Of a DNA stretch of 64,000 nucleotides, positions 8,384-28,189 are shown piece by piece (within the stretch, counting starts at the first letter, position 1; each line of letters opens with the position of its first letter). The DNA lies in assembly GCA_026710435.1 (NCBI GenBank), contig JAPOQZ010000259.1, positions 1 to 64,000 of the forward strand. The letters run 5' to 3'. The notes under the pieces are model-generated. The model was not told the DNA's origin. It saw only the letters and a list, made by a program, of their open reading frames with translations, and made no database searches. The translations under genes were made by a program, and so were the position numbers. The stretch comes from a bacterium. Its GTDB lineage: Bacteria; Actinomycetota; Acidimicrobiia; Spongiisociales; Spongiisociaceae.

Positions 8384-10165
8384 ATGCCTGAGACGCACGA
8401 GCCCCTCACCCCGTTCGGACTCTCCGATCTGCTGGACCGCATCGACTACGAGTGGGAGAGCCGGCGGCGCGTCTTCGACCTGCCGATCGCCCGCTTCTTC
8501 AACGTGTCCGAAGGCCCGGACCTGTCGATCGACTTCCTGGGCCGGCCCGCCGCCACCCCGGTAGGGCCCGCGGCCGGACCGCACAGCCAGATGGCCCAGA
8601 ACATCGTCCTGTCCTGGCTCGGTGGCGGCCGGCTGATGGAACTCAAGACGGTGCAGATCATGGACGAACTCGAGATCGGCCGGCCCTGCATCGACATGGA
8701 GACCATCGGGTACAACATCGAGTGGAGCCAGGAACTCAAGATCCCCCAGTCGCTGGAGGAGTACGTCAAGGCCTGGATGATCCTCGGGATCCTCCAGGAG
8801 TGGGGCGAACTCGCCCCCTACATCGGGACCGATCCCGGACCCTGCATCTTCGATCTATCGGTCGGCTACGACCTGGAGGGCATCTCGACCCCGCAGGTGG
8901 CCTGGTTCATCGACTCGATGATGGACGCCTCCGAGGAGATAGAACGCCTGAGACCGCAGATCGACGGGGCGTTCGCCGGGTACCGCGACCTGGAGTTCCC
9001 GTCCCGGATAGCGGACACCGTGACCCTCTCCACCTTCCACGGGTGTCCCCCCGACGAGATCGAGTCGATCACCAAACACCTGATAACCCGCCACGGCCTC
9101 GATGTGATCGTGAAGCTCAACCCCACCCTGCTCGGCTTCGAGAGGGTCGAGGAGATCGTGCACCAGACCCTGGGGTACGGATTCACGGTACTGCGGCGAG
9201 AGGACTTCGACAACGACCTCCAGTTCGATCGCGGGCTGGAGTTGATCGGGGAACTAGAGGGCTTCGCCGCCGACCACGGGCGCCGTTTCGGTATCAAGCT
9301 CACCAACACCCTGGTGGTGGAGAACACCAAGGGCTTCATGCCCGACCAGACCATGTACCTGTCGGGGCCTCCCCTGCACGTGGTGTCCACCACGCTGCTG
9401 GGCGAACTGCACAAGGCGCTGCCCGGAAGGCTGAGGATCGACGGTCAGGACGGCCCGGTCCAGGTGTCGTTCTCGGCCGGCATCACCAAGGAGAACCTCC
9501 CCGACGCCGCCGCACTGGGGTTAGCACCCCTGACCATCTGCTCCGACCTCCTCAAGCCCGGTGGCTACGGACGCCTGAAGCCGATGCTCAAGGCCCTGCA
9601 AAAGGTCATGGTCGGCGCGGGGGCGGCCTCGCTGTCCGACTGGCAGGCCCATCGGGGGACCCTGTCCAACGGGCAGGGGGCGGTAGCGGCCTACATCGCC
9701 CAACTCCACGACCCGGCGACCAACGGGCGCTACACCCTCGAGGGCAACTCGAAGCTGCCCAGAGCCGTGGACAACGACCTGCAGATGTGGGGATGCGTGG
9801 CATGCAATTTCTGCGTGACCGTCTGTCCCAACGATGCCTTCTTCCGGATACCCACCCCACCCGAACTCGACGCGGTCGGCCTGCAGCAGTACCTGGTCCT
9901 CGCCGAGTTGTGCAACGAATGCGGCAACTGCATGGTGTTCTGTCCCGAGGTGGGTGACCCGGCCGTCATCAAACCGCGCCTCTACATGACCGAGCATCGC
10001 TTCCAGGAGGAGACCGAGCAGGCTTTCCTCGTCCACCAGGATCCGGACGGTTACTGGGTGCAGCCCAACAGCGCCGGCGCCGAGTGGACCGGCGACCTGC
10101 TCCTGCTGCTGAACGGAGCGGAAGGGTTCGTGCTGCCCCCGTCCGACAAGCAGGCCAGGAAGTAG
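8384..10165 (+). CDS. YgfK-like (putative selenate reductase subunit) DHOD-like / 4Fe-4S protein, short form
   Basis: DHOD-like body with C-terminal CVACNFCVTVCPNDAF and CNECGNCMVFCPEVGDP ferredoxin motifs; directly downstream of xdhD/ssnA-like genes. Confidence 0.75.
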   Translation: MPETHEPLTPFGLSDLLDRIDYEWESRRRVFDLPIARFFNVSEGPDLSIDFLGRPAATPVGPAAGPHSQMAQNIVLSWLGGGRLMELKTVQIMDELEIGRPCIDMETIGYNIEWSQELKIPQSLEEYVKAWMILGILQEWGELAPYIGTDPGPCIFDLSVGYDLEGISTPQVAWFIDSMMDASEEIERLRPQIDGAFAGYRDLEFPSRIADTVTLSTFHGCPPDEIESITKHLITRHGLDVIVKLNPTLLGFERVEEIVHQTLGYGFTVLRREDFDNDLQFDRGLELIGELEGFAADHGRRFGIKLTNTLVVENTKGFMPDQTMYLSGPPLHVVSTTLLGELHKALPGRLRIDGQDGPVQVSFSAGITKENLPDAAALGLAPLTICSDLLKPGGYGRLKPMLKALQKVMVGAGAASLSDWQAHRGTLSNGQGAVAAYIAQLHDPATNGRYTLEGNSKLPRAVDNDLQMWGCVACNFCVTVCPNDAFFRIPTPPELDAVGLQQYLVLAELCNECGNCMVFCPEVGDPAVIKPRLYMTEHRFQEETEQAFLVHQDPDGYWVQPNSAGAEWTGDLLLLLNGAEGFVLPPSDKQARK

Positions 10166-10201
10166 GCAGCGGCCCCAGCCCGACTACCCATGGAGTAACC
10201 G

Positions 10202-10654
10202 ATGGCCCGTACGATGCAAGAAGTTCGCCGCTTCGTCGGCGCCGACCACGGCCTGTCGGTGGTCTCGTTCGGGCGTCCCGACCAGTCGGTGCACTCCACC
10301 GTCGTCAATGCGGGCGTGATGGACCATCCCGTCACCGGCGAGGAGGTGGTGGCCCTGGTGGTGCGCGGCAACACCGTCAAGCTCCGGCACTGGCGCCACA
10401 CGCCGAGAGCCACCATCGTGTTCCGGTCGGGTTGGTTCTGGGTCGGCGTGGAGGGAACCACCAGCATCATCGGCCCGGATGACCCTGACGAAGGCTTCGA
10501 CCCGGCCGCGGTGCCGCAGTTGCTGCGGGACGTGTTCACGGCCGCCGGAGGCACCCACGACGACTGGGACGAGTACGACCGGGTGATGGCAACCGAACGC
10601 CGCGCGGCTATCTTCATCCACCCCACCCGCATCACCGGAGTCGGCCAACCCTGA
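10202..10654 (+). CDS. PPOX-class / pyridoxamine 5'-phosphate oxidase-like F420-dependent protein
   Basis: VVALVVRGNTVKLRHWRHTPRATIVF...FWVGVEGTTSI; C-terminal RAAIFIHPTRITG. Confidence 0.65.
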   Translation: MARTMQEVRRFVGADHGLSVVSFGRPDQSVHSTVVNAGVMDHPVTGEEVVALVVRGNTVKLRHWRHTPRATIVFRSGWFWVGVEGTTSIIGPDDPDEGFDPAAVPQLLRDVFTAAGGTHDDWDEYDRVMATERRAAIFIHPTRITGVGQP

Positions 10655-10699
10655 GCGGAGCCAGGAAGTACATCCGATCCGGAACTCGGCACCCCCAGA

Positions 10700-11395
10700 T
10701 CAGGTCACGTGTCTAATGGTGCGCCCGTTGAGCGGCTGTATCGCACGATTGTTGGGTCCCCGAGTCGCTGAAGTCAAGGCTGCTAACTGGTCCGCCGAGA
10801 CTGTCAATGACCCCTCCATGATGAACCAGTCAACAGGTTCGATACAGGGAGGAGTGGTCGTGGAGCCGATATAGTGGAAGTATCCATTAGCTCTTGGCTT
10901 GAGGAATCTACTGTGCAGCATGGGATGGGTTCCATACGGAGACCTTTTGGACTCGGAGGTTGTGATTAGGCCATCAACCAACGTATTGGCGTCCCCGACT
11001 TCTACCATAAGAGCGACTACCGCCAGATCGCTTTCGCTATTCTCATGTACGATATGTATCTCTGCGGAGTACCGTCGATTGTCGATCAGGTGTTCTGACG
11101 GTGCATGGTAGTGTGCTTGCACCAACTCGAACACGCCGGTGGAGGTAACTACATAACTGTCTGGATGATACCAAACAGTTATCGTCCTCCCATTGTTATA
11201 TACACCAATGGGTTTGCTGTTATACAAGAACTCGATATGTGTTTCGGTAGCTCTCTCATAGCCCGTGATGTCGATGGGAGACTGCCGCAGACCGCTATCG
11301 CATGGTTGGAAGGAGTCCGATAGCGACGACCAACGATCCGGGCCGGTCACTCCTTTGTAAGACCATATCGGACGTTTCGTATCGATTTCTCGCAC
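10700..11395 (-). CDS. alpha-class carbonic anhydrase without an obvious signal peptide
   Basis: WSYKGVTGPDRWSSL, QSPIDI, QAHYHAPSEH, AEIHIVH, YIGSTTTPPCIEPVDWFI. Confidence 0.85.
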   Translation of the reverse strand: MREIDTKRPIWSYKGVTGPDRWSSLSDSFQPCDSGLRQSPIDITGYERATETHIEFLYNSKPIGVYNNGRTITVWYHPDSYVVTSTGVFELVQAHYHAPSEHLIDNRRYSAEIHIVHENSESDLAVVALMVEVGDANTLVDGLITTSESKRSPYGTHPMLHSRFLKPRANGYFHYIGSTTTPPCIEPVDWFIMEGSLTVSADQLAALTSATRGPNNRAIQPLNGRTIRHVT

Positions 11396-11440
11396 GTCAT
11401 ATCTCCAAAAGACTCAGAACGTTGCCAGTTCGTGATCCAG

Positions 11441-11539
11441 GAGGGTGCTGAACAATGACGATTGCTCGGGCCTGCCGCCCGCCAGCCCAGGCATTTTGCC
11501 GGCGGTTGGCAGGCCGCTGGTGGATTGCTCAGCACCCTC
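11441..11539 (+). repeat. MITE-like palindromic element, full copy E1
   Basis: GAGGGTGCTGAACAATGACGATTGC...GATTGCTCAGCACCCTC, 99 bp; flanks CCAG/CTAG. Confidence 0.85.
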
Positions 11540-11701
11540 CTAGAGCCTTGACCCTATCCGGCGCTCCCGTTGCTGCCTCTCATCTGAGATCAGCTACCTC
11601 GATGAAGGCGTACACAACCCCGGAGATCGCGAACAGGCCGGCGGATAGAACGCGATCACGGGACGACCGGGTCGGATCCAGCCCGTTGCGGTGCATGAAG
11701 G

Positions 11702-12568
11702 TCAGGCCTGCAGTAGGTGGGCGAATGAGGCCCGGGCCTCCTCGGTAGCCAGGAACAACGGGGCGCGGGCACGTCCGGCGCGCAATCCCACCATCTCCGC
11801 GGCGGCCTTGACGCCCGGGATCCCGTAGCGGGCCACCCCGTCGTTGGCAGCCGTCAGACGATGCTGCATCTCCATGTCCCCGGGGGGAGTCTCCAGGGCG
11901 GCGGCCACCACTTCGAGGCTCAACTCCGGCACGTAGTTGGCGGCTGCCAGGATGGCGCCATGCGCTCCCGCGGCAAGGGTCAGGGTCACCGCCGGGGCCG
12001 CCCCGTTGTAGAGGGCGAAATCGTCCGGTAGCCGCGCCAGCATCCGCTGGATGCGGATGGCGTCTCCACTGGAGTCCTTCATGCCTACCACATTCGGGTG
12101 TTGGGCCAGTTCCCAGACAACCTCCAGCGGCATCGAGTACGCGGTAACCACCGGGACAGAATAGAGGAATACCGGTAGGGGGGATTCATCGGCCACCTCC
12201 CGGAAGAAGGCGGCCACGAAGTCGGTGCGGTTGCGGGACAGGGTGGTGGGCGTCAGCACCAGCACTGCGTCAGCACCGCCTTCGGCCGCTTCGGCGATCT
12301 GGCCGGTGGCGATCCGGTTGGTCTCGGCGTTGATCCCGCACAGCAGGAACGCGTCGTCACCCGCGCTTTCCCGTGAGGCAGAAGCCAACTGTCGTCGCTC
12401 TCCCGGCTCCAGGAGGGGACCTTCACCGGTGGAGCCGGCGAGTACGAAGCCGCCATAGCCCAGGCCGCCGAGTAAGGACACGTTGTGGCGGTGTGCCTCG
12501 AGATCGATGTCTTGGCTGTCGTCGAAGGGTGTGATGATGGCGGGCATAGCCCTTGGCAGTGCTCTCAT
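11702..12568 (-). CDS. DapA/NAL-family aldolase-lyase
   Basis: MPAIITPFD...GSTGEGPLLEPGERRQL, FLYSVPVVTAYSMPLEVVWELAQHPNVVGMKDSSGD. Confidence 0.85.
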   Translation of the reverse strand: MRALPRAMPAIITPFDDSQDIDLEAHRHNVSLLGGLGYGGFVLAGSTGEGPLLEPGERRQLASASRESAGDDAFLLCGINAETNRIATGQIAEAAEGGADAVLVLTPTTLSRNRTDFVAAFFREVADESPLPVFLYSVPVVTAYSMPLEVVWELAQHPNVVGMKDSSGDAIRIQRMLARLPDDFALYNGAAPAVTLTLAAGAHGAILAAANYVPELSLEVVAAALETPPGDMEMQHRLTAANDGVARYGIPGVKAAAEMVGLRAGRARAPLFLATEEARASFAHLLQA

Positions 12569-12659
12569 GAGGCCCGGATCATAGCTTCCCGGCAGCCGGC
12601 GGTCGGGTTATCTCTAGCGGAGCAAGCATCGAATCTCGCATGGCTATGCCGGCACTGAC

Positions 12660-13033
12660 CTACGGCCAACGGCGAATGGTGGACGCTGCCGAACCCAACA
12701 CAGATGCCAGATACCCGAGATCGTCCGGGTCGCCTGTCAGTACTTCCTCACTCAGCCGGAGTGCCACGAGAACGAGGTGAGCGTCGACCACATCGGAGGT
12801 TGAGGTGAGTGCCAGAAGACGGCCGACAGCCATGCCATCGTCGAAGGGGTGTACGGTGAGCGTCTTGACGAATGCTGCAAGCCGAGCCTGGCGGGCCCCA
12901 CCCCGCCATACCTGTGCGACCACGGGATGCGTTGTATGCAGTTGGATCTCGGAGGATGGGCCACCGGCGATGAAGCGTCGTGCAATGTCGTAGCCGCGGT
13001 CGACCGAGATCAATACCCTGCATCAAGGATCAC
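12660..13033 (-). pseudogene. VapC-like PIN toxin, frameshifted near the N-terminus
   Basis: GTG 13033 gives VILDAG then TGA; a one-base shift at ~13017 continues LISVDRGYDIARRF...HTTHPVVAQVWRGGARQARLAAF...DAHLVLVAL. Confidence 0.65.
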
Positions 13034-13257
13034 AATCCGTGTCGCTCGGCCAGGGCCGCCACGCCGTCCGGGTCGACCGGGCCATCCTCGGCGTTCCAAG
13101 CCTTGATGAAAGCGTCGAAGGCCGCACGCCGCTCTCGATCAGCAGCGAGCATGCGAAGTGCTTGACGAATAGCGCTGGTCTTGCTGCCGAACTCCAGCGC
13201 GAGCTTGTCGAGAATCCGCTCATCTTCGCCCCTAAGACGGATAGTTACGATAGCCAT
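13030..13257 (-). CDS. ribbon-helix-helix (CopG/VapB-like) antitoxin
   Basis: MAIVTIRLRGEDERILDKLALEFGSKTSAIRQALRMLAADRERRAAF; GTGA overlap with the downstream PIN gene. Confidence 0.7.
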   Translation of the reverse strand: MAIVTIRLRGEDERILDKLALEFGSKTSAIRQALRMLAADRERRAAFDAFIKAWNAEDGPVDPDGVAALAERHGL

Positions 13258-13265
13258 CTCGCTAC

Positions 13266-13286
13266 TATACCACATATATTGGTATA
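13266..13286. promoter_or_regulatory. Palindromic operator candidate upstream of the RHH antitoxin
   Basis: TATACCA-CATATAT-TGGTATA, perfect 7-bp arms, 8 bp upstream of ATG 13257. Confidence 0.55.
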
Positions 13287-13376
13287 CATCAGTGCATAAC
13301 CTTCACACACATACGCTCAGGTGTAGTGACACTTCCGTTTCCACGCCTGGTTCTCTTCGAAGGGGTCAACCGAGAA

Positions 13377-14384
13377 CTAGGGCCCGGTTGACTCCTCGAT
13401 CGTCACGGAATGGACGATCACGTCCCTCGACGGGGCGCCTCCCAGAGCGCCGGTGGGCGTGTGGAGATCCATTATGGAACGCGCTACCGCCAGGCCCGCC
13501 TCGTCGGTCACACCGAACACGACGTAGATGCCCTGGGAGTCCAGGAGGGCGGCGTCAGGGCCGGTCGTGATGAAGAACTGAGCGCTCCCGGAGTCGAACC
13601 CCGACGACCGGGCCATCACGAGTTGGCCGGGTTGGTAGCGGTAGGGACCGACCGGTTGACCGGTGTCGGGGTCCATCTCGAACTGGGGCTCGTCGGGGAT
13701 GTTGTAGCCCGGACCCGGGTCGGAGGGGCTGTTGGTGTGGGGAGAACCGCCCTGGATAATGTCGATCGAGGGATCGGTGCGGAAGAGCAGGGTGCCGTCG
13801 TAGTAGCCCCAGCGGGCGAGGGTCACGAAGTTGTTGACCGTCCCGGGCGTGTCGGCCGGCGTCAATTCGAAGCGCATCTCCCCTTCGCTCGTGTCGAACA
13901 CCGCGGTGTATCGGGCCGCAGGGTCGATACACATCGGATGGGGACCCTCGAAGTCGATCCTGGGCCCGTCGCTTCCATCCGTCGCCGGACACCCTTCCGG
14001 CGGCGCCACAGGGGAGGGAGCGGTCGTATCGTCGGCGACCGATTGTTCCGATCCCTCCGGGGCCGGCGAAGTGTCCACGGAGGACGCCAGAGTGTCCGCG
14101 GGAGGGTCGAGGCTCTCGGCGAGCTCGGGCTCGGGAACACTGTCTTCCATGACGGCGTCCGGCGACGTGGTGGTGGCGCTATCGAGGGCGACCGTGTCGT
14201 CGCCAGCCGGATCCTGGGACAGGATCAAGAACAGCGCCGCCGCGGCTAGCGCCGCCAGCGCGGGCAGGGCGATCATCAGGTATCTGCGCCGGGCGGCCCG
14301 CGTCTGTTCGGCAGCCCGTGCCTCCTCCAGCCTACGTTGGCGGTTCTCCTGCTTGCGGCGTTGTGCCCTGCCCACGATTCCCAA
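13377..14384 (-). CDS. cyclophilin-type peptidyl-prolyl cis-trans isomerase, membrane-anchored
   Basis: YTAVFDTSEGEMRFELTPADTPGTVNNFVTLARWGYYDGTLLFR...GSAQFFIT; N-terminal TM segment. Confidence 0.85.
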   Translation of the reverse strand: MGIVGRAQRRKQENRQRRLEEARAAEQTRAARRRYLMIALPALAALAAAALFLILSQDPAGDDTVALDSATTTSPDAVMEDSVPEPELAESLDPPADTLASSVDTSPAPEGSEQSVADDTTAPSPVAPPEGCPATDGSDGPRIDFEGPHPMCIDPAARYTAVFDTSEGEMRFELTPADTPGTVNNFVTLARWGYYDGTLLFRTDPSIDIIQGGSPHTNSPSDPGPGYNIPDEPQFEMDPDTGQPVGPYRYQPGQLVMARSSGFDSGSAQFFITTGPDAALLDSQGIYVVFGVTDEAGLAVARSIMDLHTPTGALGGAPSRDVIVHSVTIEESTGP

Positions 14385-14454
14385 TCACGTCTTCGGACCT
14401 TCCGGCACGCCATTCTACGCCGCCCGCGCTGACACAGGATTCGTGCGTCACCGC

Positions 14455-14817
14455 CAGGGTGAACCCACGGGCCCGCCCCATCGAGCACGGCAACCAACTT
14501 GGTGGAATGGTCCGGATCGCCGGTCAGGATGTCGTCCCGCAACAGGGCCAGACGGACGAGATGGCCGTCGACGACATCCGAGAAGTGCGAGAGAGCCAGA
14601 AGCCGGCCAACGGATGGACCGTCATCTAGCGAGTGCGCCGTGACCGTCTTGGAAACGCAACCAGGCGGGCTTGCCGGGACCCACTCCTCCACACCTGCGC
14701 TACCACCGGATGTCTCGCATGCACCTGCGTATCCGACCGAGCTACAGCGGCGAAGAAGGCGCGTGCGGACTCGTCTCCGCGGTTGACCAAGATCAACACC
14801 CCGGCGTCAAGGCTCAC
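14455..14817 (-). pseudogene. VapC-like PIN toxin, paralog of 12660-13033, frameshifted
   Basis: Frame 1 SLDAGVLILVNRGDESARAFF...RHPVVAQVWRSGSRQARLVAF; after ~14651 frame 2 KTVTAHSLDDGPSVGRLLALSHFSDVVDGHLVRLALLRDDILTGDPDH. Confidence 0.65.
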
Positions 14818-15038
14818 AGCCCGTAGCGCCGCGCTATTGCTGTCACCGCTTCCTCGTCCACCGCGGCTTCGGCGTTTCAAGCGTAGAGGAAAGACTCGAG
14901 GGCGAGGTGTCGTCGCCGGTCGGCCGCCAGCGATCGTCGGGCGTGACGGATGGCAGCCAATCTGCTTCCGAACAGCGGCGCCAACCCGTCGAGGGTCTCC
15001 TTGTCGTCGGCATTGAGCCGAACGGTTGTGGTGCTCAC
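14814..15038 (-). pseudogene. RHH antitoxin paralog with in-frame TGA
   Basis: VSTTTVRLNADDKETLDGLAPLFGSRLAAIRHARRSLAADRRRHLALESFLYA*NAEAAVDEEAVTAIARRYGL; the stop falls at the Trp of FIKAWNAE in the intact paralog. Confidence 0.6.
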
Positions 15039-15341
15039 GACCAACTACTGTCCACACGCGTGCTACAGCATTGACAGCCAACAAGGCTGGCTACACGCAT
15101 CACCACGCAGCGTCGGGGAAAGTGGGGGCGGGCCGACGCGCAGGGTCCTGCCGTCAGCACAACCGCCCCTAAGGCGGCTTCCTGGACGTGCCCAGGGTTG
15201 TAGGTGCACTCGCGCTCGGCCATCCGGGTTGAGAATCACACCTCTTGAAGCGGGCTGCGGCTCAGCGTACGTTCGTCTTATGAGCGAGACCGACCACGCT
15301 CGGAGAGCTCCGGACGATACGCCACAGCCCGCGAGATCCAC

Positions 15342-15605
15342 TTGAACAAAGGACCTGGACTCCGAGGATCCGATCGAGAGCGACTCCGTTTCAGCCATCA
15401 TGCATTGAAGCGAATGGGCGAGCAGGTTATCACCCAGGAGATGGTGGAGACCGTACTGACACGTCCACGCAGGTGGTTCGAAGGAGACACCGCGAACGAG
15501 TATGAGTCCATAGTGAGGGGCCGCCGTTTACATGTTGTGGGTCTCCGTAGGCCCTCGACCGTTTATCGTCATTGTTCAGCACCCTCCTATTGGGTTGCAC
15601 GTTGA
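15342..15605 (+). CDS. DUF4258-like toxin with altered C-terminus
   Basis: LRFSHHALKRMGEQVITQEMVETVLTRPRRWFEGDTANEYESIVRGRRLHVV; final residues encoded by a MITE-end remnant. TTG start. Confidence 0.5.
   Translation: MNKGPGLRGSDRERLRFSHHALKRMGEQVITQEMVETVLTRPRRWFEGDTANEYESIVRGRRLHVVGLRRPSTVYRHCSAPSYWVAR
15567..15590 (+). repeat. MITE end remnant E2
   Basis: CGTCATTGTTCAGCACCCTCCTAT equals the right end of the full element at 36382-36480. Confidence 0.75.
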
Positions 15606-15616
15606 AGGAGAACCGG

Positions 15617-15862
15617 ATGCACGTTCGTTATGACTCGGACGCCGATGCGATCTTCCTCGTGTTGCGCGCCGCTCGCGGCGGGGAAGCCGGTGGGAGGCGA
15701 CTGGACAGTACCCGCATCGCCCATCTCGACCGCTCGGGCCGCGTCTTCGCGTACGAGTTCCTGTCCGTAAGCCAAGGGGTTTCCCTCGACGGAATCGGAA
15801 CCGACGGCGCAGCCCTGATCCGCGAAACGCTCCAGCCTATGAGCCAGATCGCCGTCGCCTGA
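15617..15862 (+). CDS. DUF2283-family protein (antitoxin-like)
   Basis: MHVRYDSDADAIFLVLR...RIAHLDRSGRVFAYEFLSVSQGV. Confidence 0.7.
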   Translation: MHVRYDSDADAIFLVLRAARGGEAGGRRLDSTRIAHLDRSGRVFAYEFLSVSQGVSLDGIGTDGAALIRETLQPMSQIAVA

Positions 15863-16424
15863 CGGCGGGTTGTCCATCCGCCTCGCTCCGAACCAAGCCC
15901 TGGGTCTGCGTCGAGAAGATCACCGTCTCAGGACAGCAGGTCACAACCCGGAGCACTACCCGCCCAACACCATTGCACCCACCGACCGCCACCACCAGAC
16001 CGCCATACCTTTCCGGACTCCGCGCCTTGCATGCCGAGCCCAAGAGCGACAGGACCTAACCGGTAGATCAGTCGGTCCCACTGACTGGGTTTGAAGCGTG
16101 TCGCTATATCGACACCGGCGAGGACGGCACCGTGAGCCAGCGGTCCTTTCGCCGGCTGTTATACTCCGGACGGCCTCATCGATCCGAGGACTCTTCCCCA
16201 GGCTTGCGCTCTCGTGCGTCCGAAGTCCGTTCTCTGGCTCCAGGACCGAAATCAAGTATCTAGATGACCGACGTAACTTTATTTGAGCAACGACTCAGGG
16301 TCGCTTCGCCACGCGGCTGCCATGTAGTGAACCATATGGCCAGGCACGGGCATCGCTGCCTTGGTCCGTTCCGAAACCTTGTCGCGAGCGCAGGCGTTGG
16401 AGGCAATCCGGTTGGAGACGGGTC

Positions 16425-19400
16425 ATGGTAGTTCCGATGCCCGGCGGGCCGGCATCCAAGGCCGCTGACCAGTACGAGTACCTCTGGACAGTGCTACGTT
16501 TGTGCGATTTGTTGGAGGGGCGAGTTGGTTCGATCCGTCTGGAGCCTCCGGGTCAAGCAGGGGTCGGAATCGAGATGGAAGTCGAGATCGACGGTGCCAT
16601 CTGGGTGGAACAGGCGAAGTCGTCGGCGACCAAATGGACAATACACAGGCTGAAGAATGAGGGTGTATTGAGGGCCGCCAAAGCGCAGATCGACCGCGGG
16701 CGCCGTTTCCGTTTAGTTGCTTCCGCGCCCGCTTCTGATCTGGGCACACTCGCTGATCGCTCCCGGAAGACGGAGACATACGAAGAGTTCACAGAGTCAC
16801 TTACACAACAGCGTCGCCCGCATCTCGCTCAGGTTGCTCAGGCATGGGGCATCGGGAATGAGCATTGTTGGCCTCTGATTCGGAAGGTCACAGTCGAGCA
16901 ATACTCTCTCGACGAGTTGAGGCGGATTGTCAGAACGACCCTGCGGCAGTTATTCGTGGACGATCCTGATCTGGTGGTCGGTGTGCTATGGAACTTCTGT
17001 GACGGACACCTGAGTCTTCGTTTCACAGCACCTCAGGTCTGGTCCTACGTCGAGTCAAAGGGTCTCCGCCGACGCCTCATCGTGGGGGATCGCAACATCA
17101 TCCGAGGGTTGCGTGGAACAGTCGATCGGCAACGGCACCGTGTAGAGAGCGCGGCACCTTCGGTGGGGTTCGTACGCCGATCCGACGTTGACGATATCGT
17201 TGGCAAACTTCGCGAGCCGGACGGGGCACAGCTGATGGTCGTGGACGGTCGGGCAGGCACCGGTAAGTCGAAAGTGGCGTTCGATGTCGCAACTCAACTC
17301 GACAGCGACGGCTGGTATGTCGGGCTCGCCAGGATGGACAGCAACGCTGCTACGTCTACCGCTATTGAACTCGGGCATCGGATGGGCCTGACGGAGTCAC
17401 CGTCGGTGCTCCTAGCGGGTGTTACCGACGGGACACCGGCCCTCCTAGTTGTAGATCAACTCGATGCCGTCAGTACGTACAGCGGTCGCATGGGTGACAA
17501 CTTCACAGCGGTGACTGAAGCCATTTCCGAAGCCAGAAGAGCGAAGAACCTCAAGATTATGCTCGTGGTCCGCACAGTCGACCTCGAGGCTGACCCCCGG
17601 ATGGTTTCGCTGCTCCGCCGTGAGGAACAGGTGGGACGGCAGACAGTCGGGCTCTTGGATGTCGAGGACATCAAGGCGCATCTAGCTCATAGCAACATGC
17701 CTGTTCCGGCGTCGGCAACAACGTTGGAACTACTCCGGACACCGCTGCACTTTTCCGTGTTCACCCGTCTTGATGGCCGTTCCCGGGCTGAACGGTACAG
17801 AACTCTGCAGGATCTCTATCAGGAGTACACAGCACAGGTTCGCAGAGACATCGAGCGCCGAGTTGGCCACCTCGACTGGGTCTCAATCACGGCCCTGCTA
17901 GTCACTCACATGAGTGGCAACGAGGTGTTGACGGCTCCTGCCCATCTCCTCGATACCACCAACCAGTCAGAAGTTGATGCTCTAGTGTCCGATGGAGTGC
18001 TGGTCAAGGACGACAGTGGTATTGCCTTCTTCCATGAATCCTATTTCGACTACCTGTTCGCCAGATCGTTCGTCGCTGACGGAGACGATCTATGCGACTT
18101 TCTGGTGGAGTCCCGCCAGTACCTGTTCCGACGCTCCCAAACGCGCCAGGTCATGGAGTATCTGGCCGGTGTCGATAGGGTCCGCTTCCGGGAAACGGTC
18201 ACTGCACTGCTCGCCCATGACGACATTAGGTCCCACCTGAAGGCTGTCGCTGTCAGTGTGTTGCGCCAGATCCAGCCCACTCCAGAAGACTGGCAGGCCC
18301 TCGAGGAGGTTGCGTGGAGAGACTCTCCCGTCGGCAAGAAGCTGCTCGGGTTGTTGGACCTGCCGGGATGGTTCGAGGCAGTTGATCGACTTGGACGGTG
18401 GGACCAGTGGCTCAACGACCCCGAGCGGGTCAACAGTGTGTTTGGCACGTTGACTTTGGCAGCACGAGAACAGCCTGTCCGCGTCTCAGATCTGGTCCGA
18501 CCCTTTATTGGCAAATCCGAGGAGTGGCGAGTGCGTCTACGTTCGCTCGTCTCCTGGTCCCTGAGCAGCGGGCTCGTTGATCTCACTGCTGAACTCATTG
18601 ATGAGGGCCAACTCGACGATGTCCGAAGTCCGATTGCGGTGAATAGCGACTTCTGGTCGCTTCTCTATTCCCTGAGCAGGAAAGATCCCGCAGGCGCGGC
18701 GCGCCTCGTCGGCGCCTACCTTCTCCGTGGTTTTGAGCGGGCTCGTCAAGACAGTTCTGACAACCCATTCGAGTCTGGACACCTGTCGCGTGCTTCACCG
18801 TCCCAATCCCAATCTGTCATCATTGAAATCGCCTCGCGGACTCCGGCCGAGTTTCTCCACCATGTGATGCCCTTCGTGATCCAACTCGCGGGGCGTACTG
18901 AGAGCGAACCCCTCCCCGGCCGGCTACCTCGAAGTCAACCCTGGGCTCTACTGCACCGGTCAACGGTGCACACCGTGCCAGCCGCTGTATTTGCCGGAAC
19001 CGAGCGAGCTTTGACAGCCCTAGCCAAGGATAACCAGGAAGCGTGTTTAGCAGTTCTACGCGATATCAGGAACGCTGAGAATTACCACCTTCGGTTCCTG
19101 ACGTGCCGGGCCCTAACCGCCATCGACGACGCCGACGCCGCTATCGGCTGGTTGCTCTCCGACACTCGCAACTTTGCGCTAGGGTGGGCCGACAGTTCGA
19201 ATTGGGCATCGCGGGAACTGATCGAGCGACACTCCGCCGACTGTTCGCCCGACGTATTCGACAAGCTCCAGGCCGCTCTACTCGGCTATACACCACCGTG
19301 GGATGATCGTCGGTTCCGAGGCCGGGATCGGTACGAGCTGATGTCGGCCTTGGACATGACCCGTCTGTCGGATCTCGCCAGACTTAAACTCCAGGAACTC

Positions 19401-20813
19401 GAGCGACGCTTCGAGTCGGCCCCGCCAACGCCACCAAGACCTCTTGAGGCGTTCCAGGTCATGTCTCCGATACCAGAAGACTCTTCGAAACGCATGTCTG
19501 ATGACGATTGGATACGCGCCCTCGAGAAGCATGCGGGAACGAAGACACGGTGGGTCGCGGACGACCGTCCGGTCGGAGGTGAAACTGAACTCGCCCGGCA
19601 GGTAGGCACTCGAGCGAAGGAAGACCCGGAGCGGTTCGCAAGGCTGGCGTTGCGGTTTACGCCTGGAATCCCGGCTGAGGCGATGAACCAGATTCTCCAA
19701 CAAACCGAAGGAGCCCTGGGCACCGACATTCTTGCCGATCTGTGCGAACATGCCCACCGCACATATGGTGCCGCGGTAGGCCGATGGGTGTGCAGCAGTA
19801 TAGCCAGGGCCAAGACGGTTAACTCACGTCTTACTCACCTCATCCGTGTGTATGCCCGAGACGCCGATCCGAGTACTTCTTCACAAGATGACTACAATGG
19901 AGACTTATTGCTCGCCGGTATTAACTCGACACGTGGGGAAGCAGCTCGCGCTGTGGCTAAGACGTTCTTCGCTAGCGACTCCTATGTCGAGGCCCTCCTT
20001 CCAGCACTATCATCTCTCGCAGTTGATGAAGCCCTGTCGGTTCGTGCTTGTGCCGCTGAGGCTGTCCTTGCTCTCTTCAACCATAATCGTGAATACGCGC
20101 TTGATCTCGCTGAACGTCTGTTGGACGCTCCGATTGAAGTCCTAGACGCCCAAACCAGTGAACGGCTTCTCATGTTCGCCATGCTATGGGAACCGAACCG
20201 TTTCGGGCTGACGATGGTGAGGGCACTGTCTAGCTCGTCTCAGATAGCCAGACGAGGAGGTCATATATGGGCAATAGCATTTGAGCAGGATAGGCTTAGT
20301 GACGGTGTTACCACGGATGTACAGGAACTCCCGACGGCAGCCAGACAAGGAGCCGCGGAAGTCTTCGTACAAGGGGTACCCAACAGCTTGAAGATCCTTC
20401 CTATTCTGTTCAACGATGACGACAAGGAGGTCCGTGAGATATCTGCTAGGGCACTCCTTAAACTTGAAGATATCCCCGGACGGTCGGACCGTGAATATCT
20501 GCTAGGTGCCTACCTCCGAAGTGCGGCCTTCCCAGTCCATCTAGATCTGGTCATTCATAAACTGACTGAAATAGCTACAAACCTACCATCAAACACGATA
20601 GATCTCTGTGAGGGAGCGATAGAGGTCACCGCCAGTGATCTCGGAGATATGACTTCTGCTTATTTCGGTGCTGGACGCGATATCACAACCATCATCGTCA
20701 GGCTCTACCGACAAGCAGGCCCTGAGATGCGGGGCCGCTGTCTGGATGTTATCGATCGGCTCACAGAACTTAATGCATATAACGTAGCCGAGGCACTAGA
20801 CAACGAACGCTGA
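16425..20813 (+). CDS. Large STAND-type NTPase with putative nuclease-like N-terminus and helical-repeat C-terminus; candidate antiphage protein (Avs-like architecture)
   Basis: N-terminal GIEMEVEIDGAIWVEQAKSSATKWTIHRL (DUF4297/Cap4-like E..QAK pattern); Walker A GRAGTGKS; Walker B ALLVVDQLDAVS; ~1000-aa helical C-terminus. Beside an R-M operon. Confidence 0.65.
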   Translation: MVVPMPGGPASKAADQYEYLWTVLRLCDLLEGRVGSIRLEPPGQAGVGIEMEVEIDGAIWVEQAKSSATKWTIHRLKNEGVLRAAKAQIDRGRRFRLVASAPASDLGTLADRSRKTETYEEFTESLTQQRRPHLAQVAQAWGIGNEHCWPLIRKVTVEQYSLDELRRIVRTTLRQLFVDDPDLVVGVLWNFCDGHLSLRFTAPQVWSYVESKGLRRRLIVGDRNIIRGLRGTVDRQRHRVESAAPSVGFVRRSDVDDIVGKLREPDGAQLMVVDGRAGTGKSKVAFDVATQLDSDGWYVGLARMDSNAATSTAIELGHRMGLTESPSVLLAGVTDGTPALLVVDQLDAVSTYSGRMGDNFTAVTEAISEARRAKNLKIMLVVRTVDLEADPRMVSLLRREEQVGRQTVGLLDVEDIKAHLAHSNMPVPASATTLELLRTPLHFSVFTRLDGRSRAERYRTLQDLYQEYTAQVRRDIERRVGHLDWVSITALLVTHMSGNEVLTAPAHLLDTTNQSEVDALVSDGVLVKDDSGIAFFHESYFDYLFARSFVADGDDLCDFLVESRQYLFRRSQTRQVMEYLAGVDRVRFRETVTALLAHDDIRSHLKAVAVSVLRQIQPTPEDWQALEEVAWRDSPVGKKLLGLLDLPGWFEAVDRLGRWDQWLNDPERVNSVFGTLTLAAREQPVRVSDLVRPFIGKSEEWRVRLRSLVSWSLSSGLVDLTAELIDEGQLDDVRSPIAVNSDFWSLLYSLSRKDPAGAARLVGAYLLRGFERARQDSSDNPFESGHLSRASPSQSQSVIIEIASRTPAEFLHHVMPFVIQLAGRTESEPLPGRLPRSQPWALLHRSTVHTVPAAVFAGTERALTALAKDNQEACLAVLRDIRNAENYHLRFLTCRALTAIDDADAAIGWLLSDTRNFALGWADSSNWASRELIERHSADCSPDVFDKLQAALLGYTPPWDDRRFRGRDRYELMSALDMTRLSDLARLKLQELERRFESAPPTPPRPLEAFQVMSPIPEDSSKRMSDDDWIRALEKHAGTKTRWVADDRPVGGETELARQVGTRAKEDPERFARLALRFTPGIPAEAMNQILQQTEGALGTDILADLCEHAHRTYGAAVGRWVCSSIARAKTVNSRLTHLIRVYARDADPSTSSQDDYNGDLLLAGINSTRGEAARAVAKTFFASDSYVEALLPALSSLAVDEALSVRACAAEAVLALFNHNREYALDLAERLLDAPIEVLDAQTSERLLMFAMLWEPNRFGLTMVRALSSSSQIARRGGHIWAIAFEQDRLSDGVTTDVQELPTAARQGAAEVFVQGVPNSLKILPILFNDDDKEVREISARALLKLEDIPGRSDREYLLGAYLRSAAFPVHLDLVIHKLTEIATNLPSNTIDLCEGAIEVTASDLGDMTSAYFGAGRDITTIIVRLYRQAGPEMRGRCLDVIDRLTELNAYNVAEALDNER

Positions 20814-20856
20814 TCGTCCATTCCCGCAGCCATTGCTGGCGAACCCCATACATGTG

Positions 20857-21990
20857 TCAGCGCTCGAAATGGCGGGTGACGGTCATTTCTATGCCGGTTT
20901 CGGTGATGATCTTTATGGCTATTTGGCCGGTCTTGGGGGTTCGGAAGGGGGCGGACTTGGTGGAAAGGGTGGCGTCCCATCGGAGTTGGTCTATGCCTCG
21001 ACCCAAGGCCTTCTTGAGGCGTTTAACCTGGCGGTCGTTGGCGGCGTTGGGGAAGTGGATGCGGCGGGCGAAGAAGCTATGACCGTCGTGATCGGTGTCG
21101 ATCATCCTGCAGGCCACGTCCCGAGCGGTGCCGCTGTCCAGGCCACCGGTTCGGGGGTTGAAGGTGTCGAAGCCGCGTAGCTCCACTTGGAACTGACCGT
21201 CGGGGTCGGTTGTGATGTCAAGGTCGGGCTCGGCCAGCATCACAAACGCCTCGGATTTGCGGTCGGGATCCAGCTCGCCGATCTGGAGGTCGCGGTTCAT
21301 AATGACCCGTAGGACACGGACCCGGCCGATCCGGGTGTCGTCGGTAGTGGCTGGGTCGAACGAGAATGCGGCGGCGATCAGGATCTGCGTGCCGTGAATC
21401 TGGCGGGGGGCTTCGGTGGCTGCGGCGGTAAGCATCGCCGGGGTAACCGTCACGTCCTCGGCGGCGATCATCACGGCGGCGTCCTGTTCGGACGACCCTT
21501 TGACTGAGCAACGGGCCTTGTGCGTAACCAGGCTGCCGCGCTTGCCGGGCCACGGCTCGATCTCGTGGACCTCGATGGTCGAGGCGGAGAGCGTGTCGTT
21601 GATTCCGGTCTGGAGCAGGGTGTCCACTACCCGTTCGACGAATACGCCCGAGGCCGTAGCCTGTTGTGATCGGGCACTCTCGCTTTCTTCGATTCGAGAA
21701 AGCGGTATGTAGGTATAGGGCGTCTCGGATTCGACGGTGAACGGAGAGCAGACCCGCACAACCCCCTTGGTCTGCTCAGGACGGTCGGCCAACTCAATGA
21801 ACTCCGGGGGTAGGTCGTAGGCGAGCCGGGCCGCCGACACATGGCGGACCTTCTCATAGATGAACCCGCCAGCAGGATCAATACTGCTATAATGGTTCTG
21901 TTCTGTTCTGTTCTGTTCTGTTCTGTTCTGTTCTGTTCTGTTGTGATCTGTTCTGTTCTGTTGTGATCTGATCTGATCTGATCTGATCTG
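20857..21990 (-). other. C-terminal part of the R-M methyltransferase, out of frame with the catalytic part in this assembly
   Basis: Post-tract frame NHYSSIDPAGGFIYEKVRHVSAARLAYDLPPEFIELADRPEQTKGVVRVCSPFTVESETPYTY... runs to 20857. Confidence 0.75.
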
Positions 21991-23450
21991 ATCGTCCAGA
22001 AGGGGTGAATAGCGGTCGTAAGACGTTGCCGGGCAACTGCTACGGACACCGTGGATGTATCGCAGGTGATCCACCGACGGCCCCACTTCTCGGCAGCGAA
22101 TGCGGTAGTGCCGGCACCGCAGGTGGGGTCAAGGACAAGATCACCTGGATCTGTGGCCATAAGAAGGCAACGCTCGATGACGCTGTCTGCGGTCTGCACG
22201 ACATACCGTTTATCCGATGTGGACATCTGTTGATGCCAGATGTTGTTTATCCGCCGACCGGGTATCTCCTCCTCGTACCACTTCCAGGCCAGTTCCGACG
22301 TGGGATTTGCGCTGTCGAGACGGCCCAACTCGGCCATCCAATCCAACCCCTCCATCGAAACGGCCCACTGTCGCGTCTCAGGACAGGGGTACTCGACACC
22401 GTTCCAAACGTACGATTCAGACCTGCCCGTGGTGGACCGACCCTGCGACGTGAGCCTCATGCGACGGTACAGGCGAGCTCCATCAGGCAGCAGATCAGGG
22501 TTTGCGCGTTCCTCCCCGGTCAACTTGCGGGTTGTGCCCTCAGCTTCCTCAACCATTACGTACGATGACATATGCTTGATCTTCCCCACACGGTCGAGCG
22601 GTTCATACAACTGCCGGTACTTGGCATGTGAACGATCCTTGGCATACCAAAGGAGAAAGTCCGCGACGCTGGGAAGGGTTTTGGACGAGGCTGAACCTGA
22701 TGTGGCGAACGGGATAGTGGCTAACCGGTTCTCGTGACCGAACACCTCATCAAGGAGTACGGCCATGCGGTGCACGTTCTCGTCGCCGATCTGAACGAAG
22801 ACCGAGCCGGACTCCGTAAGGAGGTCGCGGGCCAGGGTCAGCTTCTCAAGCATCTGGTCGAGGTAGCTGTCGATGCCGCGTTCGTAGGTGTCGCGGAAGG
22901 CGCGGATCATCTTGGGGTCGGCGGGCAGGCCTTGGCGGTTCTCCTTGGTCTCCCGCTGACGTACGGCAACCTGGAAGTTCGATTTGAAGCCGATGCCGTA
23001 GGGCGGATCGAAGAAGATCATCTGTACCTGTCCGGCCAGGCCCTCGCGCTGGGCTAGAGAGGCCATGACGCGGGCAGATTCGCCGTGGATCAGGCGGTTC
23101 TGCCAGTTGCCGGTGTGGCGGTACCACTCGTAGGACGCATCGGGAGGTAGGCCGTTGAAGTCCTCGAACAGGCCCCGCTGGTCGGGGCCGAACGATTGGA
23201 GCGACTTGACGAAGGCGCCCGGGTGCACTTTCTCGCGGATGTACAGCGGGTAGGCGTCGAACTCGTCCGGCTTCCTGCGGCGGTCCCAGGCCAGGGTGGG
23301 GGGCTCCCCCTTGCGGCGCCGCGTGGTCCAGGTCTGGGGTTGCTGCTCCTCGTCGGGCAGGAGCGCTTGCGTCTCCGAAGTTGGGATGTTGGTTCGCTCG
23401 GCGCTGTCGTGGGTGTAGTGGGCTGTGGGCGGCGGCTTCTTCTTGGCCAT
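21627..23450 (-). CDS. Type III-like beta-class DNA adenine methyltransferase; catalytic part plus frameshifted tail
   Basis: IFFDPPYGIGFKS (DPPY) precedes LVLDPTCGAGTTAFAAEKWGRRWITCDTS (motif I); passes through the pentamer tract (IRSDQIRSDHNRTEQ...) into an 88-aa unrelated tail. Confidence 0.85.
   Translation of the reverse strand: MAKKKPPPTAHYTHDSAERTNIPTSETQALLPDEEQQPQTWTTRRRKGEPPTLAWDRRRKPDEFDAYPLYIREKVHPGAFVKSLQSFGPDQRGLFEDFNGLPPDASYEWYRHTGNWQNRLIHGESARVMASLAQREGLAGQVQMIFFDPPYGIGFKSNFQVAVRQRETKENRQGLPADPKMIRAFRDTYERGIDSYLDQMLEKLTLARDLLTESGSVFVQIGDENVHRMAVLLDEVFGHENRLATIPFATSGSASSKTLPSVADFLLWYAKDRSHAKYRQLYEPLDRVGKIKHMSSYVMVEEAEGTTRKLTGEERANPDLLPDGARLYRRMRLTSQGRSTTGRSESYVWNGVEYPCPETRQWAVSMEGLDWMAELGRLDSANPTSELAWKWYEEEIPGRRINNIWHQQMSTSDKRYVVQTADSVIERCLLMATDPGDLVLDPTCGAGTTAFAAEKWGRRWITCDTSTVSVAVARQRLTTAIHPFWTIRSDQIRSDHNRTEQITTEQNRTEQNRTEQNRTIIAVLILLAGSSMRRSAMCRRPGSPTTYPRSSLSWPTVLSRPRGLCGSALRSPSNPRRPIPTYRFLESKKARVPDHNRLRPRAYSSNG
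21896..21990. repeat. Pentanucleotide tract, 19 in-register units
   Basis: Plus strand: TTCTG x9, TTGTG, ATCTG, TTCTG x2, TTGTG, ATCTG x5 (95 bp). Confidence 0.97.
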
Positions 23451-23451
23451 A

Positions 23452-26400
23452 TCAGTTGCTCTCCGTCGTGGGGTTCGTAGTCGAGCCGGATCGGACTATC
23501 CGTTTGATCTCGTCTGATATGAGGTGGTATCCGACCGCGGCGTCGGTGATCTCGACAAACCTCCAACTGCGGAGGTGTGCCGGGATTTGGGGTGAGTTGG
23601 CCACTGCGGGTATCCACCACTCCGTCACGTAGCGAGCCTTGGTTTCCGATTCCTCGTCGGGACGGCCCTTGCATTCCACGATCAGGTGAACCGGATCACC
23701 GTCCCGGTTGCGGATGCGGGCGACGAAGTCCGGCTCGTAGCTGCGCCAGACTCCGTCTTCCAGGTAGGGGATGTCCCATCCCAGGCGGAAGTTCCGCACC
23801 CACGCCTCCACATCGTTGGAGTCCGCATCGAGCATCTTCGCAATGGTGGCTTCGAGGCCGCTGTGGCAGGCCGCTATGTTGAGTTCCGATCGTTCCGACG
23901 CGCGGTGGACGGGATCATCATCCGGGGGATAGCGGTCGGCCAAGGTGGTCTCGAAATCGATGGCTGAGGTGTCGAGCGTGGTCGGGCCGTCCGAGTCGAA
24001 CATGCCTACGAGCACGGGGCCCTGCATGTCGCCGGAGCAGGCGTCCAGAACGTGGCCGACCACTTCTTCGAGGTGGGGTCGCTGCAGCACAACCCGCGGG
24101 TCCGGACAGTGGACATCCGGATGCTGCAACCAGTCCGACACGGCCTGCCGGAGATCCGCGAACAGCTGTCCCTTCCCCGTCGATGTCTGGCCATTGCCGG
24201 TGGCGATCACACGACGGACGCACGCGGCCGCTAGCCGCCATGCAGCCTGCTGGAAACGCACGTCGTCGATACCCACGAGCTCGGTCTCACCGGTCACGCC
24301 TCCGAGCTCGACCAGAGTAGGGCGGTCGAGAACCGACGCCTCATAGGGCTGCACCTTGGCGGGATCAAGCCTGATCCGGTTGGCGCCGGGTTGCCACGCA
24401 TAGCCGGCCAGGCGCGGTAGCTCGATCCGCAGATCGGCCCGGTCGGCCACGGTCCGGACCGTGTAGGGCGGGTTGGGCGGTGGCACGTGTCCACGCCGAC
24501 CGGTGGGCATGAAGTCGAACGGTATTCCCAGCACCTGGGAGTACTCGGGCGTGAGGCGTCCGTAGGAATCGACGCTCTCGTAATCGGTGCGCCGCAGGGC
24601 TCGGCCGGTAACCTGCTCGCACAACAGCTGGGTGCTGAAAGCGCGATAACCCAGCACGTGAGTGACAGTACGGGTGTCCCAGCCTTCGGTGAGCATCGAC
24701 ACCGAGATGACGCAGCGGATGTGCTCCCCCGGCTCGCCCACCCTCCCGACGGTGTTCAGGACGTTACGCAACAGCGAGATGTCGTCCGTAGCACCTACGC
24801 CACGGCGGGCAGCCGACAGCCGGGTGGCCTGCGCCTTCACTAGTTTGGCGAGCGCTCCCGTTATCTTGTCATCGCTGTCCAGCTTGGAGTGCATGAGCAG
24901 CGTGACCGGTGTTTCCTTCCACCCGGCGCTGCTCAGCCGGACATTGGATAACTCCGCCAAGGCACCTACTACGTACTCTGTGCGGCCCGACTCATCGGTG
25001 CGCTCGTATCCTCCTATGTAGTCGTACAGAGCACGGGCGTTGAAGATGCTGTTAGCCACAACGATCAAGACAGGGGGGGTGCGCCGACCGGCGTCCCGCC
25101 ACCTCTTCCATTCGAGCACCCAGTCGAAATAGAGAGAGTGGAGGGAGTCCTCCAAGAGCCCGGGCAACTCCTCGCGGGTGACCTTCTTGGGTTTGGCGTT
25201 GGCATAGATGGCCCGCCATTTGACGTCGAAGCTCTCGGCGTCATCGTCGACGGGGAGCCGAGGGATCTTGACCAGCCCGGATTCGATGGCTTCCAGCAAT
25301 GGGAAGTCCGAAACCACCCACGGGAACAACTCGCCGCCGTGCTTCTTGGCTGCGGTGCTGATGAACATGGGTGTGGCCGAGAAGTCGTAGATGGCCAGCA
25401 GGCGGTTCTGGTTCTGCAGGTCCCGGATGGCGTTGAACCACACCCCTGCCACCTTCTGGTCAGCCCGAGTCGTGGAAGCAAGACTGGGGTTGTAACAATG
25501 GTGTGCCTCGTCGTTCAGCACCAGGAGCCTGTCTCGCCCCTTCAGACTCCGCAGCACCCGATCGAGCATCACCGCAGCATCCTCGACTCCAGATTCGCCC
25601 AGAGGGTCGAGCACCTTGCGACCGTCGCCGGACACTCCTGACAGCAGGTCGCGGCGCTGGAAGGCCTGGAAGTTGACCACCGCAACCTGGGCGCGGTTGA
25701 GCCGCGCCCTCAGGTTGGGCGGCACCAGGTCCATACGGTCGTAGACGTTGCCCGGATGGGAGGGCGCCAGTTCCCCGAGCCGTTCCCGCACCGTATGACC
25801 CGGAGTGATGGCTAGAAAGGCGCTGGTGTATGGACTTGGCCCTCTCCGGCTGGTCGAAGAACGGCGGATGTCGTTCAGGGTGTGCCAGACGATCAACATG
25901 GCCATGACCATGGTCTTGCCTGTACCGGTCGCCATCTTGATCGCCCAGCGGACCATGTCCTCGTTCATCTCCTCGGAGCGGGGGGCGACCCGGTTCTTCG
26001 CATACTGGCGGCCTTGCCTGGTTTCGGTTAGCCAGATCACGGTCTCGACCGCCTCCAGTTGGGCAAAGAAGGGTCGGATGTGGCGGTTCTCGCGGGTCCA
26101 GTAGGCGAGAAGCCGCCGCGTCTGATCGGTCGCTCCCTCCCAGCGCCGTCTCCGCCAGCCACGTAGGTGAACACGAATCTCTTCGACGGTTTCGTTGAGG
26201 TCATCCGGGTTGAGTTCGAGGACCGCTTGGACGGGTTTGCCCTTGTGGGGAGTGGGCACCGGAAGGATCCCGTGCGACGGTCTCCGCCCTTTCTTTGGCG
26301 GCTGCCCTTCGATGGCTCGGCCATGGGCGTCGAGCTCCCAGTGGCGTCGAGGCTCCTCGTAGGGGGTGTTGATTACCGGGTTCGTTCGAGGATCGAGGTT

Positions 26401-26463
26401 CTCCGAATCGGACATCTGTTGGGCAGGATTCGGTGGCAAAGACTCGGCGGAGGATGCACTCAT
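23452..26463 (-). CDS. Type III-like restriction subunit (SF2 helicase plus PD-(D/E)xK)
   Basis: MATGTGKTMVMAMLIVWHTL, VLNDEAHHCYN, SMLTEGWD, C-terminal YEPDFVARIRNRDGDPVHLIVECKGRPDE. 1 nt from the methyltransferase start. Confidence 0.85.
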   Translation of the reverse strand: MSASSAESLPPNPAQQMSDSENLDPRTNPVINTPYEEPRRHWELDAHGRAIEGQPPKKGRRPSHGILPVPTPHKGKPVQAVLELNPDDLNETVEEIRVHLRGWRRRRWEGATDQTRRLLAYWTRENRHIRPFFAQLEAVETVIWLTETRQGRQYAKNRVAPRSEEMNEDMVRWAIKMATGTGKTMVMAMLIVWHTLNDIRRSSTSRRGPSPYTSAFLAITPGHTVRERLGELAPSHPGNVYDRMDLVPPNLRARLNRAQVAVVNFQAFQRRDLLSGVSGDGRKVLDPLGESGVEDAAVMLDRVLRSLKGRDRLLVLNDEAHHCYNPSLASTTRADQKVAGVWFNAIRDLQNQNRLLAIYDFSATPMFISTAAKKHGGELFPWVVSDFPLLEAIESGLVKIPRLPVDDDAESFDVKWRAIYANAKPKKVTREELPGLLEDSLHSLYFDWVLEWKRWRDAGRRTPPVLIVVANSIFNARALYDYIGGYERTDESGRTEYVVGALAELSNVRLSSAGWKETPVTLLMHSKLDSDDKITGALAKLVKAQATRLSAARRGVGATDDISLLRNVLNTVGRVGEPGEHIRCVISVSMLTEGWDTRTVTHVLGYRAFSTQLLCEQVTGRALRRTDYESVDSYGRLTPEYSQVLGIPFDFMPTGRRGHVPPPNPPYTVRTVADRADLRIELPRLAGYAWQPGANRIRLDPAKVQPYEASVLDRPTLVELGGVTGETELVGIDDVRFQQAAWRLAAACVRRVIATGNGQTSTGKGQLFADLRQAVSDWLQHPDVHCPDPRVVLQRPHLEEVVGHVLDACSGDMQGPVLVGMFDSDGPTTLDTSAIDFETTLADRYPPDDDPVHRASERSELNIAACHSGLEATIAKMLDADSNDVEAWVRNFRLGWDIPYLEDGVWRSYEPDFVARIRNRDGDPVHLIVECKGRPDEESETKARYVTEWWIPAVANSPQIPAHLRSWRFVEITDAAVGYHLISDEIKRIVRSGSTTNPTTESN

Positions 26464-27462
26464 GGCCAGAGCGTACCGCGGCGGTGTGACACAATCCGGC
26501 ATCCGATTCCGAACCCAGTGAGAACCTTCCACCGGTCGTGGTACCGGCTCACTAATCGCAACGGACGGGTCTCGGTCTCTCGGCTGCACCGACACGGATC
26601 AACGACGAACCCGTGGGCTCGCGCCAAGGCAGACACCACCCGTTCTTGATCGGCCGACCATCTCCCGGTGCGTGGCCCCCGTCCTCTATCCTTTGTCAGG
26701 TTCAACGATTGTTCGTGATAACAGTGTTGTCTTAACACAAGCGCGTTCCAGAATGACCGATATAGAGATCGGGGTCGGCGCATCGGCTGAGGGTGGCCTT
26801 TCTTCGGATCGCCACAGGAAGGAAGCGTGATGGTGATCGAATGGGGAACTGCCATAGCCACACTGGTCCCTGTTGCCGGGCTCGTGGACGGTGTATTCCG
26901 GGTGCTTGACGGCAGGCTCACTGGGACCGACCGACGGGCCAAGGAACGCTACACCGAGAGCGACCATCGGGCCGTGGCGCGCTAAAAGGAGATGGAGCGT
27001 CGGGCTGAGGAGCCCTACGAAGATCTTGTGACGCTGATCCGTCGCCACCACCCATCGGTCGCTGCTCATTGTGATCCCGGAATTGGGTTCCTATCCATCG
27101 GTGACGGGATCGGCTAGGTGCTGGATGCCGGACCAGTTGTCATCGTCATACGACTGGGCCTCGCGTGCTGAGGATGATCCGGTAGGTGGTCACGCAGAAG
27201 CCGCGTAGATGTGTCAGCTACGCCGGCGGCCGTGTCCAGCCAGGAAGAACACCACCCCGACCAGCCAGGTGATCGAGCCCCACAGAAGGAGGATGTCCCC
27301 ATCCCGTAGGGCGGCGAGCAGGAACACGATGCCCGAGATCGTGAACAGGACCCAACCGATCAGGTCGAAGCGGCCGCCCAAAGTCAGTCTCCGGTCAGCC
27401 GGTCGAACTCGTCGATGCGCTTACCAACGGGATCGGCCAGCGCCTGGAGACCGGTCCAGTGG

Positions 27463-28023: not shown

Positions 28024-28189
28024 GTCCGATCACTTTCTCACCGTGTCATTGTGCACAATACGATAGTTTACGTAAGTGGCCAGGTTTCACAGGGCCCCGG
28101 CTGGTACACGGCGTCGGGGATCGGTACGACTTGTCTGCGTGGGCTCGACCGGTCCTACACAAGGTCCGCTGGAGTGAGGCACCGACCAC

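Follow-up and report, generated by a model that had tools for sequence, protein, structure and literature searches.

The window, by which we mean the whole stretch of 64,000 nucleotides that was analysed, carries a gene for a candidate Avs-like STAND NTPase, which meets a type III restriction-modification (R-M) system tail to tail (Table 1). The reading frame of the receptor gene is open throughout without internal stop codons, and a ribosome-binding site precedes its ATG; a promoter scan upstream of the gene gave nothing above chance. The preliminary description had claimed a QxK-type nuclease motif and Walker A and B motifs, and all of these were located at the expected places. The nuclease motif EMEVEIDGAIWVEQAKSS occupies residues 50-67. 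Among 77 relatives with the same N-terminus, E18 was conserved in 95%, E40 in 96%, E50 in 94%, Q63 in 87% and K65 in 92%, and the three glutamates were invariant in A2. Across the receptor family G280, K281, D344, D347, R383 and H537 were 100% conserved, and P440 99%. Because these residues are conserved across relatives, the motifs are not chance matches.

Table 1. Positions of the receptor gene, its domains and motifs, the neighbouring R-M genes, and two related loci in other genomes
Feature	Position	Strand	Basis or remark
Candidate Avs-like STAND NTPase, single-gene defence protein, 1462 aa	16425..20813	+	ORF from ATG; 212 relatives in genome scan; intact conserved motifs
GGAG ribosome-binding site, 7 nt before ATG of receptor gene	16414..16417	+	Sequence
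Predicted N-terminal PD-(D/E)XK nuclease domain, Cap4/DUF4297-like, about residues 1-225	16425..17100	+	AF2, Foldseek, 10/51 relatives matching PF14130
Nuclease motif residues E18, E40, E50, Q63-x-K65	16476..16619	+	Conservation in 77 relatives
STAND NTPase core, about residues 250-440, with sensor Arg383 and P440 motif	17172..17744	+	Pfam, invariance, hhalign
Walker A GRAGTGKS, residues 275-282	17247-17270	+	Motif
Walker B LLVVDQLDAVS, residues 340-350	17442-17474	+	Motif
Helical/winged-helix part of STAND module, invariant H537 (FFHESYFDYLFAR)	17742..18104	+	Conservation and AF2 model
C-terminal HEAT-type helical solenoid, presumed sensor, about residues 600-1462	18222..20813	+	AF2, HEAT_2, Foldseek
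Neighbouring type III Mod, split in the assembly into overlapping frames (ORFs of 607 and 409 aa), not part of receptor	20857..23450	-	PADLOC MTase_III 2.3e-113 and 9.4e-41
Neighbouring Res, BPTD_3080-type restriction endonuclease, not part of receptor	23452..26595	-	NCBIfam NF046055 2.5e-229, slightly under curated cut-off
Two-TM protein and receptor, locus L039	9329-9703 and 9710-13642		Receptor 43% identical to window protein over NTPase and sensor
Two-TM protein and receptor, locus L024	73-489 and 486-4433		Receptor 41% identical to window protein over NTPase and sensor

The nature of the N-terminus, described beforehand as nuclease-type and DUF4297/Cap4-like, was examined by structure prediction. 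The AF2 model of residues 1-250, based on an alignment with 50 relatives, reached a pLDDT of 91.7. In a Foldseek search of the PDB the best match was Avs3 (8dgc; E 2.5e-7, TMq 0.64), with HamA of Hachiman, LmuA of Lamassu and Cap4 in the next places, all four at probability 1.00, indicating the PD-(D/E)XK fold. The window protein itself gave no match to Pfam Cap4_nuclease (PF14130), and the link to Cap4 therefore rests on the fold and on the relatives, as 10 of the 51 family N-termini matched this model (best 3.9e-6). We thus predict the N-terminus to be a Cap4-like PD-(D/E)XK nuclease. LmuA, HamA and Cap4 belong to the same fold class but are separate subunits or SAVED-domain proteins without a STAND NTPase, whereas the domain of the window protein is fused to one.

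For the remainder of the protein (residues 262-1459), the AF2 model had a pLDDT of 90.5. Foldseek placed portal-bound Avs4 (8dgf) first (E 3e-14), then the importin-type HEAT solenoids of karyopherins, with NLRC4 at rank 37. The TM-scores of these comparisons were moderate, 0.64 for the N-terminus and 0.41 for NTPase plus sensor, and the solenoid resembles importins as well. Pfam gave HEAT_2 (5e-6) and nSTAND_NTPase5 (1e-5), both weak and under their gathering scores, and AAA_16 at 1.4e-4; no NACHT domain was matched by Pfam at E up to 1. All features of the STAND NTPase superfamily were present, namely Walker A, Walker B, the sensor arginine, the proline motif after the NTPase, and the helical/winged-helix domain with its conserved histidine. 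Lack of a nuclease fold at the N-terminus and a clear match to a non-defence NTPase family had each been named as grounds for abandoning the Avs-like reading; the N-terminal model has such a fold, and no match of that kind was found. The C-terminus had been described as helical and without an obvious known family. The first part holds, and the second is revised, as HEAT_2 and the karyopherin matches point to a HEAT/ARM-type solenoid.

Related defence systems and distribution

Avs proteins couple an N-terminal effector to a STAND ATPase and a C-terminal repeat sensor for conserved phage proteins. As judged from the AF2 models and Foldseek, the window protein has the same layout of effector, STAND NTPase and repeat sensor in one chain as Avs1-5 (AVAST). 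The Avs models of NCBIfam and PADLOC did not match it at E up to 1, however, and those of NCBIfam did not match four relatives, so that membership of Avs1-5 was rejected. The term Avs-like is accordingly retained for architecture and folds and dropped for membership. Given Avs-like folds without a match to an Avs model, we suppose that the protein works in the manner of Avs but stands outside Avs1-5.

Individual Avs types were then compared. Avs3 (AVAST type 3; 8dgc) shares with the window protein a Cap4-like PD-(D/E)XK nuclease fused to a STAND NTPase with a long, helical sensor behind it, but its chain is about 2000 residues long as against 1462, and the sensor of the window protein is of HEAT type. 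Avs4 (AVAST type 4; 8dgf) likewise combines an NTPase with a helical sensor, but identity in the structural alignment was just 11% and no Avs4 model matched. A direct sequence match to the solved Avs structures, Avs3 included, was rejected, as neither a PDB search at E 1 or better nor a profile search at 0.1 gave one. With Avs2 (PADLOC PDLC02164, NCBIfam NF041813) the likeness is confined to the NTPase: hhalign against two Avs2-like proteins gave 95.4% probability over 194 columns of this domain, and 10 of 40 relatives matched Avs2 models (best 7e-8), but the window protein itself did not. In the genomes of the class to which one relative, a Pseudomonadales MAG (L079), belongs, no Avs4 reference sequence was found.

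The nearest family in the libraries was PDC-M54A, a phage-defence candidate of PADLOC, which matched the core of the window protein at 3.5e-10. It was matched by 36 of 40 relatives (best 4.5e-27), one of which aligned from residue 5 through nuclease and NTPase. The two PDC-M54A models span 1621 and 1657 positions; the window protein covers parts of them only, the NTPase and part of the sensor, whereas relatives match more strongly. No paper on PDC-M54 was found in the library searched. A solved 'AAA family ATPase' of 1523 aa (9n00/9n01/9yix) gave a profile match of 1.5e-58 over NTPase and sensor, but its N-terminus was unmatched by the nuclease profile of the window protein family; for 9n00 the same library yielded no publication.

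The genome scan confirmed 212 relatives, of which the best 80, mostly full length, were kept. These 80 come from about 15 phyla, including Actinomycetota, Chloroflexota, Cyanobacteriota, Acidobacteriota, Planctomycetota, Verrucomicrobiota and Pseudomonadota, and Streptomyces and filamentous cyanobacteria often carry a relative. No relative of the receptor was found in phage records or viral contigs, and a phage- or virus-borne gene was rejected. Apparently the window protein belongs to a widespread and uncharacterised receptor family related to the Avs systems. As this broad family conserves its HEAT-type sensor over the full length, a conserved ligand is implied, probably a viral one.

Effector exchange and proposed mode of action

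The nuclease is not a constant part of the family. It was absent in eight actinobacterial relatives with NTPase-sensor cores 38-44% identical, and in more distant cyanobacterial relatives a caspase or SEFIR domain stands in its position, indicating that DNA cleavage is not the universal output. On the core tree, in which the placement of distant plasmid members is unsure, about five changes of effector label were needed, at least four of them forced by well-supported branches. Three Glycomyces receptors (L023:9449, L025:9347 and L026:9230) have in place of the nuclease a common N-terminal domain of about 180-250 residues without a Pfam name.

At two loci the effector appears to be replaced by a small membrane protein. 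The receptor of L039 begins with IELSASKGVQVGDRNTQTNNF, while a two-TM protein of 124 aa encoded directly upstream ends with IELQDNKGVQIGDNNTQSNDF; the corresponding pair in receptor and adjacent two-TM protein of L024 is STISGPNVQVGG and STIMGPNIQVGG. None of 200 shuffles was as good for either pair. Pairs of NLR and effector with a BASS amyloid motif in common are described as arranged in the same way (PMC7889193). The tag of L039 and L024 looks RHIM/BASS-like, with an assignment to BASS3 made by resemblance only, and amyloid signalling apparently takes the place of the nuclease there. A search for amyloid tags shared with a flanking ORF gave no significant match in L023, L025, L026, L027, L028 and L031. 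Within the family, the same switch-sensor is coupled in some members to a DNA nuclease and in others apparently, via a RHIM/BASS-like tag, to a small membrane protein. The family offers a natural test set for the interchangeability of NLR outputs, and for the question of whether amyloid-signalling and Avs-type nuclease NLRs answer the same trigger.

The genes next to the relatives were also surveyed. In a small comparison, strong PADLOC hits were obtained for at least 10 of 66 near neighbours as against about 4 of 66 genes lying more than 5.5 kb away. The near-neighbour hits include type I, IIG, III and IV R-M, HmaA, Hhe, HerA and candidate systems. In L064:6387-10004 the end of an HmaA-type helicase gene (6.5e-156) touches or overlaps the receptor start, and the two are possibly translationally coupled.

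The top fold matches to Avs3 and Avs4, the conserved motifs, the PDC-M54A relatives, the effector swaps and the defence neighbours together support the reading of the window gene as an intact, single-protein, Avs-like immune receptor with a nuclease effector directed against phage, which we hold to be probable. A conserved phage protein would be the ligand of the HEAT-type solenoid. The invariant STAND motifs suggest that the central NTPase would then exchange or bind ATP and oligomerise. By analogy with Avs3, Cap4 and LmuA, oligomerisation may bring the Cap4-like domains together as an active dsDNA nuclease, which would destroy phage and/or host DNA and halt the infection.

The adjacent R-M system and other readings of the gene

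The gap to the R-M operon had been put at about 45 bp, tail to tail; the distance to the Mod-end ORF is 43 bp and the genes are convergent. Within Mod, 19.2 copies of the 5-nt repeat GTTCT lie at 21895-21990. The Mod homologues of two relatives, G034 and G026, are intact (876 and 846 aa), and no such repeat array was found there; in a third, G031, the Mod frame is 534 aa long and a CTGTT repeat is present in 8.6 copies. We read the window Mod as phase-variable and as off in this assembly.

The genome G034 is syntenic with the window on both sides (8384-10644 and 20873-32270), with an R-M system 83% identical, but in place of positions 10645-20872, receptor gene included, it has 3.9 kb with different genes. 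Since this syntenic relative has the R-M system without the receptor gene, R-M is taken as the older resident of the locus. Consistent with a horizontal gain of the receptor gene are its GC3 of 0.61 (0.71-0.89 in the other genes measured), a Chloroflexi MAG among its closest relatives at 49% identity versus 47% for a relative of the same order, and its absence from the syntenic site. Few genomes of its own class carry the gene (3 of 395). The genome of the window belongs to one class with Acidimicrobiia MAGs: G108, from the order of the window, and G908, from the class to which the L017 genome belongs, are one and the same contig. The segment 10645-16424 is missing from the G034 site, and pieces of it, such as a cyclophilin gene near 13377-14384 and the stretch 15160-15880, occur elsewhere in related genomes; the segment has the look of a local rearrangement, on the edge of which the receptor gene lies.

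PrrC guards a type I R-M system, and the STAND nuclease might similarly serve as a second line, triggered once the adjacent type III system is inactivated by a phage or restriction is switched off at the DNA level. An R-M system of the same type, Mod with a BPTD_3080-like Res, also directly adjoins the receptor in L017/L018, L061 and L087, where the two are co-directional, tail to tail and divergent, respectively; at no other distance was it found in the flanks of other relatives. The pairings look independent in origin, because the Res proteins of L017 and the window share no more than about 34% identity, as against 83% for the R-M systems of G034 and the window, and because the STAND tree puts L061 and L087 into distant clades. 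With an R-M frequency of 26 in 395 genomes of the class, we estimate that direct adjacency arising independently four times in about 75 receptor loci lies far above random placement, even allowing for defence islands. However, such a neighbour is missing in most relatives, among them six further Chloroflexi loci, and the close relatives G034, G031 and G026 have the R-M system without the STAND gene. Gene order and strand of the pair are not conserved, which argues against an operon, and for this locus an operon or obligate partnership was rejected. As the adjacencies are a minority of loci, a functional link is possible at most, and we think it unlikely that the nuclease is such a guard. If it were, the locus would hold a two-layer defence, a phase-variable R-M system backed by a suicide nuclease. 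Similarly doubtful is the wider proposal that R-M-adjacent receptors guard restriction or sense the phage factor disabling it, while the same chassis elsewhere works by amyloid templating to a membrane effector.

The anti-phage receptor was also weighed against a signalling NTPase that answers plasmids, stress or self/non-self signals, its nuclease serving programmed cell death. STAND proteins of multicellular bacteria act in other conflicts too, and the abundance of relatives in Streptomyces and filamentous cyanobacteria fits such a role; the defence-gene neighbourhood, the exchange of effectors and the fold matches to Avs3 and Avs4 speak for phage, and we give this alternative little credence. 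That the receptor gene is degenerate or inactive, as its atypical base composition and its rarity in the class might suggest, is hardly credible for a full-length open frame with all catalytic and Walker residues intact and a ribosome-binding site in place.
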